From the NCBI RefSeq assembly GCF_009649225.1, contig NZ_WJPP01000001.1:434001-498000 (forward strand): a stretch of DNA of 64,000 nucleotides. The letters run 5' to 3'. Under the pieces are notes generated by a model. That model did no database searches. It was not told where the DNA came from and was given only the letters and a program-made list of their open reading frames with translations. This document shows positions 36,641-44,909 of the stretch, piece by piece; within the stretch, counting starts at the first letter, position 1; the number at the start of each line of letters is the position of its first letter. Made by a program: the position numbers and the translations under genes. The DNA comes from Spiribacter salilacus (GTDB lineage Bacteria > Pseudomonadota > Gammaproteobacteria > Nitrococcales > Nitrococcaceae).

Positions 36641-36673
36641 ATAGAAACCTAACGCCCCGACCTGCCAGTTGGT

Positions 36674-36750
36674 TGGTCGGGGTGGAGGGATTCGAACCCC
36701 CGACATCCTGCTCCCAAAGCAGGCGCGCTACCAGACTGCGCTACACCCCG
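36674..36750 (-). tRNA. tRNA-Pro (anticodon TGG)
   Basis: Minus strand, 77 nt; acceptor CGGGGTG/CACCCCG, anticodon loop TTTGGGA, encoded CCA. First gene of the Pro-His-Lys tRNA unit. Confidence 0.96.
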
Positions 36751-36769
36751 CCTCGACAGCGGAGGCAAA

Positions 36770-36798
36770 ATCATACCGGTGCCCCAACTTGCGGTCAA
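36770..36798 (-). promoter_or_regulatory. Promoter of the tRNA Pro-His-Lys operon
   Basis: Minus strand TTGACC (36793-36798) and TATGAT (36770-36775) with a 17-bp spacer, 19 bases before tRNA-Pro. A TATACT box for rhlE on the plus strand (36805-36810) lies back to back with it. Confidence 0.65.
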
Positions 36799-36836
36799 TC
36801 AGCGTATACTCTCCGCCGAACTTTGGAGAAATACAC

Positions 36837-37958
36837 TTGAATACATTTGATGAACTCGGCCTTCGTGCCGAACTGCTTGAAACTATTAAACAATCTGGAT
36901 ACACCACCCCTACTCCCATCCAAGCCAAGGCCATTCCTTTGGTATTGAGTGGGCAAGACCTTTTGGCTGCCGCGCAGACGGGTACCGGCAAAACCGCCGC
37001 ATTTACCCTGCCTTTGCTGCAGCGCCTTGCGGAAAAAGAAACACCATCAGGACGGCGCCCAACGCGCGTACTGGTGGTTGCACCCACCCGCGAGCTGGCC
37101 GCGCAGATCGGCGAGAACACCCGTATTTATGGTAAGGGCCTGCCGCTGCGATCCGCTGTGGTCTTTGGCGGCGTTGGCATGCAACCACAAGTTGATAAGC
37201 TGCGTCGCGGCGTCGATATACTGATTGCTACTCCCGGGCGGCTACTTGATCATCTACGCCAAGGCACCACCAAGCTCGATCATGTCGAAACGGTTGTTTT
37301 AGATGAAGCCGACCGTATGTTGGATATGGGCTTTGTGCACGACATTAAGCGCCTGCTCAAGCTGCTTCCAGCAAAACGCCAAACTTTGCTATTTTCGGCC
37401 ACTTTCTCAAAAGAGATTCGGCAACTTGCCTCGGGTTTCTTAACGGCACCGGCGGAAGTGGATGTAGCACCCCGCAACAGCGCAACGGAAATGGTCAGCC
37501 AGCGGGTCTACACGCTCGATAAGGCAGCCAAGCGCAAAGTGCTCAGCCGCTTGATTCGCGATGGCGAATGGCAGCAGGTCTTGGTATTTACCAAAACCAA
37601 GCATGGGGCTAACCGTCTCAGCAAACAGCTGGATGAAGATGGATTAAGCTCTACCGCCATTCATGGCAACAAGAGTCAAACCGCTCGCACACGCGCGCTA
37701 AAAGACTTTAAAGACGGCTCAGTCCGGGTGTTAGTGGCAACGGATATCGCGGCGCGCGGCCTAGACATTGATCATCTGCCGCATGTGGTGAACTTTGAGC
37801 TCCCCAATGTGGCCGAAGATTATGTGCATCGCATTGGGCGCACGGGTCGTGCCGGCAATCCTGGTGAGGCGATCTCATTGGTTGCACCGGATGAAATTGG
37901 TTTATTGAAAGGCATTGAGAGGCTGCTGAAACGCCCCTTGGAGCGTGCCAGCGCCTAA
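36837..37958 (+). CDS. rhlE: DEAD-box RNA helicase, RhlE type
   Basis: 373 residues with Q motif ([13 protein letters not shown]), motif [11 protein letters not shown], motif [17 protein letters not shown] (FSATF) and motif [12 protein letters not shown]. RhlE-type helicases act in ribosome assembly and RNA turnover. The only plausible start is TTG 36837, eight bases after GGAG; the longer open frame upstream runs through tRNA-Pro. The basic C-terminal tail of many RhlE proteins is missing, so this is a core-only form. Confidence 0.92.
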
Positions 37959-37999: not shown

Positions 38000-39337
38000 C
38001 TATTGGTAATCCGCTAGGTAGGCTTCTAACCCTCGGGCGCGCTCGGCTGCCGCTGTTAGAATCGACGCAACCATTGCCTCAGGGACTGTAGCGTCCATTT
38101 TTTGGGCGCTAGTGTTAGCAGCAGTTGGGAGCAAATCAATTAATTCCTCCATCACCTCATGCAACGCAGAAACAGCGAAACCCGCCTTAGTGGCTGTCTG
38201 TTCGAAATGCCGAGGCTGAATATCGATGACTTTGTAGCGCCTTGCCCGACCGACTGCCATGGCAAGCCGAAATGCGTTACGTTTTATTTGGCGACGATCA
38301 TTCTGCCATTGCGTTGAGAAAATGTCGTAGAGAGGTGCCAGCGAAAAACGGCCTTGCGGCCTTATGGACAGCGAAAAGTTCTTTGCATGCCCATCGGTAG
38401 CACCTATCATCCAGAAAGCAATTTGTGCTTTCATAAAAGTCTGTCGATCCTGCTGCGCTGAATCACTGGACTTCAGAAGCTCCAGACAATCAACCAATCC
38501 TGGGCCACCATCACTTTGATACTTTGCAATAGGCGCAACGCCAAGCGCCTGACACATATCCTCTTGAGGAAGCCGCAGAAGCCGCCCCGCCTGATCAAAA
38601 AAGCGATCAAACCGCTCCACAACTAACACAGACAGATCATCGCCCAGATTTAAAATATCGGTCCGGGCAACGTCTAGGCCAAGCTCTCGACAAAGCGTCA
38701 TACAGAAATGCTCGTTCTGTACGCTCTGACTCAGATCGACCTCACCATCTGCTGTAAGAACCTTTCCAATTTGCGGCTTAAGGATATGCGTGGTGGGCGT
38801 CACCCCGATCGGCTCTTTCCATTGCCCTTCATGGTAGAGCAGCGCCGTCTTATCTTGAGCGCCCGCTAACGAGATTCGAAACGCATCATCACCCCCTCGC
38901 AAACCCAGCGGTGCGGTTCGCAGTGCCAGAATGCGCTGGCCAATCTCTTCCATACTGAGCGGAATACCCTCGGGTAGCGAAGGTGGGGCAGGCACAACCC
39001 TCTCAGGCAAAAACTGAAGAGCACCTACGCAATCACGCCCAAGCGCAGCTAACAACGAAAAAGCATCGGTTCCATCTGCGTCAACTCGAGCCGCTAACCG
39101 GGTTCGAATGCGGTCATCGTCCGGAAGCAGATTTTCAAAAACAGCGCGGACCGGTGCTCCGGTAAATGGCCGATCAAGCAGTGGCATTGATCGCGATACA
39201 GGTATCGCGTAACGCCAGTTAAGCCAGTCCGCTGCATAATCAAACCGGGTGGCACCATCCGCGCCGCGCTCAAGGTAACCGACAATGCGACCATTTAATG
39301 CAACCGTTAGCCTGGCGGATTGACGCTTTCGCCCCAT
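38000..39337 (-). CDS. hipA: HipA-type serine/threonine kinase toxin
   Basis: 445 residues. N-terminal couple_hipA domain (about 1-105) then the kinase: SLAGAQDKTALL nucleotide loop, HILKP, VVERFDR, catalytic loop GATDGHAKNFSL and metal site LAPLYDI. All key residues seem intact. E. coli HipA phosphorylates glutamyl-tRNA synthetase and causes persistence; targets vary in other HipA groups. Its ATG overlaps the hipB stop (TGATG). It converges on rhlE. Confidence 0.93.
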   Translation of the reverse strand: MGRKRQSARLTVALNGRIVGYLERGADGATRFDYAADWLNWRYAIPVSRSMPLLDRPFTGAPVRAVFENLLPDDDRIRTRLAARVDADGTDAFSLLAALGRDCVGALQFLPERVVPAPPSLPEGIPLSMEEIGQRILALRTAPLGLRGGDDAFRISLAGAQDKTALLYHEGQWKEPIGVTPTTHILKPQIGKVLTADGEVDLSQSVQNEHFCMTLCRELGLDVARTDILNLGDDLSVLVVERFDRFFDQAGRLLRLPQEDMCQALGVAPIAKYQSDGGPGLVDCLELLKSSDSAQQDRQTFMKAQIAFWMIGATDGHAKNFSLSIRPQGRFSLAPLYDIFSTQWQNDRRQIKRNAFRLAMAVGRARRYKVIDIQPRHFEQTATKAGFAVSALHEVMEELIDLLPTAANTSAQKMDATVPEAMVASILTAAAERARGLEAYLADYQ

Positions 39338-39582
39338 CAGAACAAATCCTCAATTCTTGGAATATCCTGACTGTTACGTGAGCGCACTGACACTTCCAAA
39401 CCCAGCGCAAATAAAAGATCGAAAATAACCCGTAGCTCAGAACGCGGCTTACCACCCTCAACAGCTGAAATGGTCTGCTGCCGCAGCCCGGCCTTCTCGG
39501 CAAGTTGCGCTTGCGTAAGGCCCTGACGCTTTCGCTCTCGCTGTAGCGCAGCTCCAAGTTGTACGGCATCCCGAATCGACAT
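39337..39582 (-). CDS. hipB: HipB-type antitoxin (Xre HTH)
   Basis: 81 residues from MSIRDAVQLG with a Cro/C1 HTH (GLTQAQLAEKAGLRQQTIS) and a short acidic C-terminus ending IEDLF. Start ATG 39582 is preceded by GGAGGTG. HipB proteins bind HipA and repress their operon. Two direct repeats that overlap the promoter lie immediately upstream. Confidence 0.93.
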   Translation of the reverse strand: MSIRDAVQLGAALQRERKRQGLTQAQLAEKAGLRQQTISAVEGGKPRSELRVIFDLLFALGLEVSVRSRNSQDIPRIEDLF

Positions 39583-39608
39583 AGTGCACCTCCAATCAGA
39601 AGAATACA

Positions 39609-39652
39609 CGTGATCGCGGATAAAACAAAAATATGCGTGATCGCGGATAAAA
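39609..39652 (-). promoter_or_regulatory. hipBA promoter with two 17-bp operator repeats
   Basis: cgtgatcgcggataaaa occurs exactly twice, at 39609-39625 and 39636-39652, with start points 27 bp apart. On the minus strand each copy begins TTTTATCC, and TATCC is the half-site known from E. coli HipB operators. TTGTTT (-35) and TATTCT (-10) with a 16-bp spacer can be placed so that the proximal copy covers the spacer, which would allow repression by HipB. Confidence 0.7.
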
Positions 39653-39671: not shown

Positions 39672-39747
39672 TGGCGCGCCCGGCAGGATTCGAACCTGCA
39701 ACCGTCGGCTTAGAAGGCCGATGCTCTATCCGTTGAGCTACGGGCGC
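39672..39747 (-). tRNA. tRNA-Arg (anticodon TCT)
   Basis: 76 nt on the minus strand; acceptor GCGCCCG/CGGGCGC, anticodon loop CTTCTAA, encoded CCA. A TACAAT box lies at 39759-39764. It is immediately upstream of hipBA. Confidence 0.96.
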
Positions 39748-42073: not shown

Positions 42074-43149
42074 TAAACACCCCCTTTCCAGCGGTAAACA
42101 CGGGGCACCCGTGGTGTAACTTGGCACAGTAATTCATAGCTAATCGTACCTGCGCGGGCAGCCACCTCATCCACCGTCGGTGCATCGCCCCACAAAATTA
42201 CGCGATCGCCAATTCCAGCGGCCGGTACCGTGCGTAAATCGACGCACAACATATCCATCGACACTCGCCCAATCACCGGCACCAGTGCGCCCTGAATGCC
42301 TACCACACTGCCCTCACCACAATGCCTCGGATATCCATCCCCATAGCCAATTGAGACAACGCCCACCGGCATATCCTGCGGACAAACAAAGACACTGCCA
42401 TACCCTACGCCATGGCCTGCAGGCAGGTTTTTAACGGCAATTAATTGCGCTTCTAAGGACATGACGGGCCGCAACCCTGGTGTGCCCAGCGGCGCTGAGC
42501 CAAACAACATAATGCCGGGGCGCACCCAATCGCCATGCGTTTGTGGCCAGCCGATTGTGCCGGCCGAGTTGGCAAGAGAGCTTGGCCAGCCAGACGGTGA
42601 TGTGAGTTCATCAAAGCAGGCCTGTTGTGCATCGGTTGCTGGGTTATCCGGATTATCAGCGCTGGCGAGATGCGACATCCAGTACACATTCCCCACGCCA
42701 GCGGCCCGCTGCAAACGCTCTGCGATCATTCCCGCTTGATCCGGCGCAAACCCAAGCCGGCCCATCCCGGTATCCACTTTCAGCCAGCAATCAATGCGAT
42801 TGGGTAGCATTGCCTGCTCTAGCGCCTCCAACTGCCAGAGACTGTGCACCACTAAATCTAAGCCCCGCGCGGCAGCAATTGGGATTTCTTCAACCCCAAA
42901 CACCCCTTCAAGCAAAACGATTCGCTGCTTTAGCCCGGCTAACCGCAACGGCAGCGCCTCTTCAAGGCAGCTGACCGCAAACGCATCGGCATCGGCGGCT
43001 AATGCATGGGCTACGGGCAATAAACCATGCCCATACGCGTTTGCCTTAAGCACCGCCATTATCTTGGCACCCGTGGCAAGCTGGCGTGCCACCGAAAAGT
43101 TGTGCCGCAACGCGCTCAGATCAACGGTTGCTTGCGTCGGTCTGGTCAC
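42073..43149 (-). CDS. alr: Alanine racemase
   Basis: PLP enzyme supplying D-alanine for peptidoglycan; 358 residues. The PLP lysine is in AVLKANAYGHG (about residue 34) and the second catalytic Tyr is in GYGSVFV/SIGYGDGYPR region. Start overlaps the dnaB stop by four bases. Confidence 0.96.
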   Translation of the reverse strand: MTRPTQATVDLSALRHNFSVARQLATGAKIMAVLKANAYGHGLLPVAHALAADADAFAVSCLEEALPLRLAGLKQRIVLLEGVFGVEEIPIAAARGLDLVVHSLWQLEALEQAMLPNRIDCWLKVDTGMGRLGFAPDQAGMIAERLQRAAGVGNVYWMSHLASADNPDNPATDAQQACFDELTSPSGWPSSLANSAGTIGWPQTHGDWVRPGIMLFGSAPLGTPGLRPVMSLEAQLIAVKNLPAGHGVGYGSVFVCPQDMPVGVVSIGYGDGYPRHCGEGSVVGIQGALVPVIGRVSMDMLCVDLRTVPAAGIGDRVILWGDAPTVDEVAARAGTISYELLCQVTPRVPRVYRWKGGV

Positions 43150-44909
43150 TCCCAGCCCCCGCCCCCATAGCCCGCGCTATCCTGAATAAAATTCTCAAAG
43201 CGCGTGTAATGCCCAAGGAAGGTGAGCCGCACCATTCCCACTGGCCCATTACGCTGCTTACCAATGATGATTTCCGCCGTCCCGGCATCGGGGCTATCTT
43301 CGTTATAAACCTCATCGCGATAGATAAACACGATGACGTCTGCATCTTGTTCAATGGCGCCCGAGTTATGACTAATTACGCCATCGGCTAACCAGCACTC
43401 AGTCTCGGGAACAGTCAGGTCATATACCGTCTCTTCGCCGGCAGTTTCAATGGAGACAATTTCATCCGCAAAAAAAGTGTTCTCCCAGCAATCCAAAAAG
43501 TCACCGACATTTAATGCTTCCACTTTCAGCCATTCAGCATTCGTTCTTAGTCGATGATCACGGGTGCAGCGCAAAGATCTGCCACTCGCGAGATTTATTT
43601 TGACTACTGGTCGTTGACCGACCTCCCAAACCAAATCTGATTTACCAGTAATAACGGTACCTTGATCATTGACCGTAAGAACTTCTGGAGTTTGGCCAAC
43701 AAGCTCTCGAATGGGTTTTCGAGAACCATCGGCTAAAAGAACTCGGGTGTCCCCGGTTACGCATTCGCGTAAATCCGACATAATTGGGCGCTTATTCGGC
43801 CGCTGCTCAAGACTGCGGTTGAGCTGCGAGAGCACAATCACCGGTACGCCGAGCTCCTTGGCCATCCCTTTTAAGGTGCGTGAAATCTGCGAAATTTCGT
43901 TGGTCCGGTTTTCCTTAAAGCCAGGCAACTGCATCAGCTGCAGGTAATCTACTAGCACTAGGCCAAGGCCGTGCTCACGCTTAAGGCGCCGACAACGTGC
44001 GCGCATTTCAGTGGGTGTTAGGCCTGGCGTATCATCAATAAAAAGATTGGCCTGCGAGAGCAGGTTCATGGTGCTGGTCAGACGCGGCCAGTCTTCGTCG
44101 GTTAGCCGGCCCGAGCGAATTTTTTGTAGCTCCACACGCCCCAGCGATGCCAGCATACGCATCGCCAGTGCATCCGCCGGCATTTCCATACTAAATACGG
44201 CAACAGGTGCGCCCTTCTGCAGCGCAGCGCCCTCAGCGATGTTCATGGCCAGCGTTGTTTTACCCATGGAAGGGCGACCCGCAACGATAATCAGATCGCC
44301 ATTTTGCAGGCCTGAGGTCATGCGATCTAAATCGCTAAAGCCTGTGGCTAAACCCGTCACATCGCTATTTTGGTGATAAAGCGTATCGATTCGCTCTACC
44401 ACCGCCGGCAGCACATCGCGCACCCCAACAAAGCCGCTTCGATTGCGACCCGATTGCTCGGCGATGGCAAAGATTTTACGCTCGGCTAAGTCGAGAAGCT
44501 CTGCGGAGTCTTGACCGTCGGGGTTAAAGCCCGTGTCGGCAACGGCGGTGCCCGCCTGAATAAGCTGACGAAGCACCGATTGCTCGCGCACGATATCCGC
44601 GTAGGCCTGAATGTTTGCGGCACTTGGAGTGTCTCTCGCCAGCGCACCAAGGTACGCAAGCCCGCCGGCGTCTTCAAGCTCACCACTCGACTTTAATCGC
44701 TCTGAAAGGGTGACGGCATCCATCGGCTGGCCGGCCTCAGCCAACCAAGCAATTGCCCCAAAAATCAGACGATGATCGCGGCGGTAGAAATCGCCCTCTA
44801 CCACACGGTCCGCCACCTGATCCCAGGCGCCATTCTCAAGCATTAGACCGCCAAGGACAGCCTGCTCAGCTTCCAGAGAATGCGGCGGTACCTTGAGCGA
44901 ATCCACCAT
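43146..44909 (-). CDS. dnaB: Replicative DNA helicase DnaB containing a mini-intein
   Basis: The frame encodes 587 residues, but 133 of these (383-515) are an in-frame intein, leaving a 454-residue helicase of normal length. DnaB parts: N-terminal primase-binding domain (PPHSLEAEQAVLGGLM), Walker A GRPSMGKTTLA (about 211), Walker B VLVDYLQLM (about 321), and after the intein SGAIEQDADVIVFIYRDE and IIIGKQRNGPVG. The intein interrupts the highly conserved loop between the DLRE and SGAIEQDAD segments. Splicing is therefore needed for an active helicase. Follows rplI with an 11-base gap and overlaps alr. Confidence 0.96.
   Translation of the reverse strand: MVDSLKVPPHSLEAEQAVLGGLMLENGAWDQVADRVVEGDFYRRDHRLIFGAIAWLAEAGQPMDAVTLSERLKSSGELEDAGGLAYLGALARDTPSAANIQAYADIVREQSVLRQLIQAGTAVADTGFNPDGQDSAELLDLAERKIFAIAEQSGRNRSGFVGVRDVLPAVVERIDTLYHQNSDVTGLATGFSDLDRMTSGLQNGDLIIVAGRPSMGKTTLAMNIAEGAALQKGAPVAVFSMEMPADALAMRMLASLGRVELQKIRSGRLTDEDWPRLTSTMNLLSQANLFIDDTPGLTPTEMRARCRRLKREHGLGLVLVDYLQLMQLPGFKENRTNEISQISRTLKGMAKELGVPVIVLSQLNRSLEQRPNKRPIMSDLRECVTGDTRVLLADGSRKPIRELVGQTPEVLTVNDQGTVITGKSDLVWEVGQRPVVKINLASGRSLRCTRDHRLRTNAEWLKVEALNVGDFLDCWENTFFADEIVSIETAGEETVYDLTVPETECWLADGVISHNSGAIEQDADVIVFIYRDEVYNEDSPDAGTAEIIIGKQRNGPVGMVRLTFLGHYTRFENFIQDSAGYGGGGWE
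43365..43763 (-). mobile_element. DnaB mini-intein (133 residues, no homing endonuclease)
   Basis: First residue Cys (CVTGDTRVLLADG, block A), block B LRCTRDHRL with the T-x-x-H motif, block F VYDLTVPE and block G GVISHN ending in His-Asn, with Ser as the first C-extein residue. All residues needed for self-splicing are there. About 30 residues separate block B from block F, so there is no LAGLIDADG or HNH endonuclease and the element cannot home by itself. The DNA looks AT-richer than the flanking dnaB sequence. The layout resembles the DnaB inteins of cyanobacteria and Rhodothermus. Confidence 0.95.

Follow-up and report, generated by a model that had tools for sequence, protein, structure and literature searches.

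The window analysed here, a stretch of 64,000 nucleotides from Spiribacter salilacus, carries on its minus strand the gene for the replicative DNA helicase DnaB, and this gene is interrupted in frame by an insert of 133 codons. The features of the gene are as follows.

43146..44909, minus strand: dnaB, precursor of the replicative DNA helicase, 587 residues (454 after the predicted splicing); matches DnaB_C, the DnaB N-terminal domain and TIGR00665.
43365..43763, minus strand: DnaB mini-intein, 133 residues, class 1 by its residues, register RE|SG, in what is taken to be motif H4, the DNA-binding loop; matches PF14890, TIGR01445 and TIGR01443.
43761..43763, minus strand: Cys1 of block A, putative N-terminal splicing nucleophile, conserved in all 22 aligned inteins.
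43554..43565, minus strand: block B, T67-R-D-H70, with T67 and H70 conserved in all 22.
43488..43490, minus strand: Cys92, absent at this place from the 13 other short inteins (<260 residues); full-length relatives have the endonuclease here.
43419..43421, minus strand: Asp115, block F (V-Y-D-L), invariant in 22 of 22.
43395..43397, minus strand: Cys123, block F (E-C-W); Cys in 19, Ser in 14, Asn in 4 and Ala in 1 of 38 same-site inteins.
43365..43370, minus strand: His132-Asn133 of block G, putative C-terminal splicing residues, conserved in all 22.
43362..43364, minus strand: +1 Ser of the C-extein, aligned with Ser383 of DnaB chain 2vye (hand-counted on the alignment).

The precursor matches DnaB_C (E 1.4e-105) and the DnaB N-terminal domain (E 2.6e-34), and the matched region is interrupted at residues 383-515, which are the insert. 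It is flanked by MSDLRE on the left and SGAIEQDAD on the right, and intein-free relatives keep the uninterrupted reading DLRE-SGAIEQ. Taken alone, the insert matches PF14890 (E 4.7e-16; 59.4 bits, cut-off 35.8), TIGR01445 (E 7.5e-16; 58.9 bits, curated cut-off 24.5) and TIGR01443 (E 7.7e-6; 26.0 bits, curated cut-off 15.6). At the level of profile comparison, these Pfam and NCBIfam matches exclude a chance resemblance to inteins. At E<=1e-10, the window's genome (G000 below) gave no DnaB match besides the dnaB at 43146-44909, and no other intein above the TIGR01445 cut-off was found there. The first-pass annotation had described an in-frame 133-residue insert with a full set of splicing residues in dnaB; the profile matches, the exact boundaries 43365-43763 and the residue conservation bear this out.

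Elsewhere in the window, an ORF pair at 38000-39609 resembles, as judged by eye, HipA and a small helix-turn-helix partner, and lies near a tRNA-Arg gene (39672-39747). The pair found no match in regions of up to 20 kb from 20 relatives, not all of which reach this place; it is possibly a lineage-specific insertion. The start of the ORF at 36669-37958 overlaps a tRNA-Pro gene on the opposite strand (36674-36750), so the true start of this ORF is probably downstream.

Comparison of the insert with its relatives provides the basis for assigning its class and fold. Class 1 inteins have Cys, Ser or Thr at position 1, a TxxH motif in block B, Asp in block F, a terminal His-Asn and Cys, Ser or Thr at +1. 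Across 22 aligned inteins of the RE|SG site, C1, T67 and H70, D115, and H132-N133, which we assign to blocks A, B, F and G respectively, are all invariant. Together with the +1 Ser, these residues identify the insert as a class 1 mini-intein. Class 3 inteins, which are without a nucleophile at position 1, carry a WCT triplet distributed over blocks B, F and G. The triplet is also given as a class 3 trait in the part of PMC6195587 available to us. Assignment of the insert to class 3 was ruled out, as Cys1 is present and V-Y-D-L holds Asp115 rather than Cys. The AlphaFold2 model of the insert, computed on the 22-intein alignment, reached a mean pLDDT of 94.6 and a pTM of 0.86 and displays the HINT fold, which the insert is hence predicted to adopt. 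A Foldseek search of this model against the PDB returned the Npu DnaB (4o1r) and Ssp DnaB inteins at the top, with a TM score of 0.94 (4o1r, 6frh and 1mi8).

With 133 residues and no homing endonuclease domain, the insert is a mini-intein. Missing from it are 285 codons that are present in full-length relatives at the same site, and the earlier reading of an endonuclease-free element thus stands. It had also been placed close to the smallest natural inteins, and indeed it ties for the smallest of the 38 distinct inteins at the RE|SG site, while intein chains of similar size exist in the PDB (128 residues for gp41-1, 137 for Spl DnaX and 142 for Npu DnaB, 4o1r).

On the alignment, RE-SG falls at residues 381-384 of DnaB chain 2vye (counted by hand), residues reported to contact DNA in a solved DnaB-DNA complex. 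The interrupted RE-SG is taken to be motif H4, which is described as the DNA-binding loop and as intein site a in the part of PMC6195587 available to us. Because the insert interrupts this loop, the unspliced precursor is unlikely to be a working helicase. The insert does not fit the RESG|S register: it sits at RE|SGA, two residues upstream, with Ala where the +1 residue of that register would be. An offset of two residues from the cyanobacterial site, which the first reading had given for the Synechocystis DnaB intein, is confirmed by the DnaB intein of the Planktothrix phage PaV-LD (RESG|C...HN|S). The Ssp DnaB, Npu DnaB and PaV-LD inteins occupy the same DnaB loop as the insert, are of class 1 and share its fold at the TM score given above. 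Identity between the insert and the Npu DnaB intein is 33%, and block F, which reads HNF in the Npu DnaB and PaV-LD inteins, reads ECW in the insert.

The mycobacterial DnaBi2-type intein is placed likewise in motif H4, site a, in the accessible part of PMC6195587, and the Nocardia farcinica intein is probably of the DnaBi2 kind. The latter is homologous over the whole 418 residues, endonuclease included (38% identity), but stands at the RESG|S position and in a clade separate (100/100) from the RE|SG inteins. The DnaBi1 intein of M. smegmatis is likewise an endonuclease-free intein in DnaB; it differs in occupying the P-loop site and in belonging to class 3, according to the same portion of PMC6195587. 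Gammaproteobacterial DnaB inteins that bear an endonuclease are already in print: in the part of PMC4853749 available to us, a LAGLIDADG-like or homing endonuclease domain is attributed to the dnaB intein of Thiomargarita nelsonii, and one of Beggiatoa 'BOGUAY' is mentioned. That text does not give the insertion position, and the two are likened to the insert by description alone. In the open-access literature (subscription papers and the intein database lay outside this scope) we found no description of a Spiribacter intein or of the RE|SG position.

The same site was then compared across the genus. Besides G000, 13 same-genus genomes were searched, 12 of which gave a dnaB match; G008 (74% complete) gave none and was left out, so that 13 genomes including G000 are counted. 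The site occurs in these genomes in four states.

Full-length intein, 418 residues (five genomes): G001, G003, G009, G010, G011.
Partial intein, 231 residues (one genome): G004.
Mini-intein (three genomes): G000, 133 residues; G013, 133 residues; G005, 145 residues.
Uninterrupted dnaB (four genomes): G002, G006, G007, G012.

The 418-residue forms stand at exactly the site of the insert, and all five contain two acidic motifs, GDGSY and TDGS, which we take to be those of a LAGLIDADG-type endonuclease; judged by these motifs, the same-site relatives would be homing inteins. The endonuclease-bearing RE|SG inteins of these five genomes and of Ectothiorhodospira, Thioalkalivibrio, Vreelandella and Marinospirillum share the codon position and the splicing blocks with the insert at 53-69% identity, and keep about 285 further residues, with GDGSY ... 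TDGS, that the insert has lost. Its description as a remnant holds in the sense of an intein that has lost its endonuclease. In the G004 intein both acidic motifs are gone and about 120 residues match the last 123 of the G010 intein at 72%, which looks as if decay of the endonuclease had started mid-domain. Inteins of intermediate length were observed in G004 (L006, 231 residues), in G052 (L143, 223 residues) and at L047 (249 residues).

The best explanation of these observations, and one that we consider very probable, is that the insert descends from a mobile intein with an endonuclease, which was lost in this lineage, and is now a class 1 mini-intein. The conserved residues argue for self-splicing. 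Cys1 would attack the preceding Glu bond in an N-S shift assisted by T67 and H70, the acyl group would be transferred to the +1 Ser, cyclisation of Asn133 would release the intein, and a final acyl shift would ligate DLRE-SGAIEQ to give a normal DnaB of 454 residues. The genome yielded a single DnaB, and the insert divides its H4 DNA-binding loop, so splicing would have to be efficient for replication to proceed. The ancestor would have been one of the mobile DnaB inteins that occupy this position in many gammaproteobacteria and some other phyla. Deletion of the endonuclease in the G000 lineage would most likely be an event separate from the loss in one or more further lineages of the genus. 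The element would now be immobile and is probably retained since its precise removal is rare. The homing cycle to which such a history belongs is reviewed in PMC1654191.

The number of endonuclease losses was addressed with trees of the host locus and of the inteins. In the locus tree, built from 8 neighbour genes, the first split within the genus separates G000, as sister, from the other members (100/100); G013 falls beside the empty G012, then the full-length G001, then the empty G002, all with 100/100. The inteins of the genus form one clade among the 22 compared (99/99). A single loss, with the 133-residue form passed between the G000 and G013 lineages, is the strongest of the alternatives and still an unlikely one. 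The two forms have the same length, and their deletions are of equal size (855 nt) with nearly equal endpoints; such similarity is also to be expected if only one cut leaves a functional HINT fold. Against a shared origin, the splicing domain of G013 is 83-87% identical to those of the full-length G001, G009 and G011 inteins and 64% identical to that of G000, and the two hosts are distant on the locus tree. With intein DNA, the approximately unbiased (AU) test rejects a clade of G000 and G013 (p-AU 0.036), of all three mini-inteins, G000, G013 and G005 (p-AU 0.0017), and of the mini-inteins with the partial G004 form (p-AU 0.0083). The protein AU test, on 133 columns, gave no rejection for the two 133-residue minis (0.218), for all three minis (0.124) or for these with the partial G004 form (0.149). 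A common origin of the mini-inteins in G000 and G013 is disfavoured by the DNA test, and the protein test is compatible with it. L044, a near-copy of L046, was omitted from the tree of the 22 inteins, from the protein AU tests and from the full-length protein tree. Taken together, the data suggest that the endonuclease was lost at least twice in the genus, in addition to the partial deletion in G004. Three separate losses are only suggested, because the DNA does not reject clades of G000 with G005 (p-AU 0.097) or of G013 with G005 (0.183).

Pairwise substitution rates bear on how the inteins are maintained. Values of dN/dS are 0.05-0.09 for the splicing domain in six pairs among G001, G009, G011 and G013, against 0.02-0.04 for the extein, and 0.08 for the endonuclease in three pairs among G001, G009 and G011. 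These low ratios indicate that both parts are under purifying selection in the genomes compared, the pairs with G013 being imprecise at a dS of 1.36-1.55. For G000, synonymous sites are saturated in all three splicing-domain pairs computed (with G009, G010 and G013). The insert has a G+C content of 46.9% (39.1% at third positions) against 56.7% (59.2%) in its extein; other inteins of the genus are also below their own exteins, G013 and G005 by at most 1 point. Since intein G+C is below extein G+C, a late horizontal arrival of the G000 intein is possible, perhaps already as a mini-intein.

Movement between species is hinted at by the trees of full-length inteins, which pair G001 with G009 (protein 100/95, DNA 94/97), while G009 groups with G011 in the trees of locus and extein. 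The DNA test against a G009 and G011 pair in the intein tree gave p-AU 0.049, a marginal value in a tree where long branches meet, and a recent transfer from a G009-like lineage into G001 was set aside on these grounds. The locus and extein trees are themselves in conflict, as the former places G001 beside G012 and G013 (100/100) and the latter beside G002 (96/94).

The first-pass annotation had proposed that the block F cysteine, with another cysteine nearby, could make splicing redox-sensitive and that the intein may act as a control switch on replication. In its general form, this alternative holds that splicing stalls under oxidation, zinc or the wrong salinity and so pauses replication; we consider it improbable, somewhat more so than a single loss. 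The insert has cysteines at 1, 66, 92 and 123, of which Cys66 is present in 14 of the 22 aligned inteins and Cys92 is an addition. The reading of block F as ECW was correct. The same cysteine is common to other same-site inteins, endonuclease-bearing ones included, and in 19 of 38 relatives the residue is Ser, Asn or Ala. The block F cysteine was consequently discarded as specific evidence for a redox switch, being a trait of the family. Cys92 lies at the endonuclease-deletion point, a place at some distance from the active site in other inteins. The insert is acidic (net charge -9), as proteins of halophiles often are, the host being presumably a halophile. Halo-obligatory mini-inteins are described in the part of PMC8229266 available to us, and in the parts seen of PMC6195587 and PMC7360933 oxidation and zinc each block the DnaBi1 mini-intein of M. 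smegmatis, although that intein is of class 3 and at a different site (PMC6195587). The absence of the intein from sister genomes (4 of the 13 with dnaB), together with its varying size, disfavours a switch that replication needs. We found no support for such control and infer that the insert has no regulatory role.

That the insert is dead, or an assembly error, is the weakest alternative and highly improbable: its sequence comes from one assembly and its splicing is read from residues, but the frame is open in the single dnaB found, every splicing residue is kept, and same-site inteins are present in assemblies of other species.

The class 1 mini-intein belongs to a wider family at the same site. 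Among the loci fetched, 38 distinct inteins (the insert included) stand at RE|SG; they fall into a short group of 14 (133-249 residues, below 260) and a long group of 24 (409-433 residues). Judged from record titles or from relatedness to the window, gammaproteobacteria host 31 of the 38; among the other hosts are Bacteroidota, Chloroflexi, Peregrinibacteria and a viral contig. Two residues downstream, at RESG|S, homologous inteins occur in Nocardia farcinica, in G085 (from the window's class), in phage PaV-LD and in several viral contigs. Full-length inteins of the two registers are homologous throughout, and an unrooted tree of 28 of them (L044 left out of 29) separates the 23 at RE|SG from the five at RESG|S by one branch, with support of 100/100. 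This one branch suggests that the change of insertion position was a single old event.

The residue at the downstream position was compared as well. It is Ala in 36 of 37 RE|SG intein hosts, the exception being L043 (Achromatium), with Ser. At RESG|S, Ser occupies +1 in the PaV-LD mini-intein and in all five full-length inteins of the tree, as the chemistry demands. The background in the window's class, drawn from loci for 30 of 36 genomes searched, comprises 29 readable loci with 23 Ala, 4 Ser and 2 Gly, the thirtieth (L228) being the window's own interrupted gene. Selection of the RE|SG register by the downstream Ala was not retained as a conclusion: the excess over background is small (36/37 against 23/29) and merely compatible with the data. 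The downstream Ala may be a precondition for this register.

Several DnaB genes were observed with two inteins, one breaking the P-loop (GRPSMGK|C) and one at RE|SG: L147 (G028), L141 (G050), L142 (G040), L143 (G052), L173 (G406), L174 (G310) and L034 (Vreelandella massiliensis). At L169 (G368), the frame holds one more intein match farther upstream. An open frame of 24,213 codons in G186 (L180) was rejected as a giant gene, as it consists of a stretch of N; next to it lies the end of a further DnaB intein, with the junction HN|SGAIEQ.

The insert itself is an ordinary element at one stage of the homing cycle. Less usual are the completeness of the allele series in one bacterial genus and the split of two codons between registers. 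The genus provides a compact natural series of empty, full, half-deleted and reduced (133-145 residues) alleles at one DnaB site. Fungal PRP8 inteins, in a different host gene and kingdom, likewise show full, mini and empty states among close species, as described in the part of PMC1508164 available to us. The genus series is a bacterial counterpart of PRP8, and a test bed for the loss of endonucleases and for the minimum size of a splicing domain. More tentatively, and with slightly less than even confidence, we propose that one lineage of intein plus endonuclease moved by exactly two codons within the H4 loop, in either direction between RESG|S and RE|SG, and left full, half-deleted, mini and empty alleles in one genus. 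Where Ala has replaced the downstream Ser, the RE|SG form would rely on the Ser within RESG, and could thereby enter DnaB genes of the SGA type, which are common in gammaproteobacteria. If this is true, the homing cycle would be directly testable in a bacterium, and the two-register pattern poses the question of how a site-specific mobile element shifts its insertion point by two codons.
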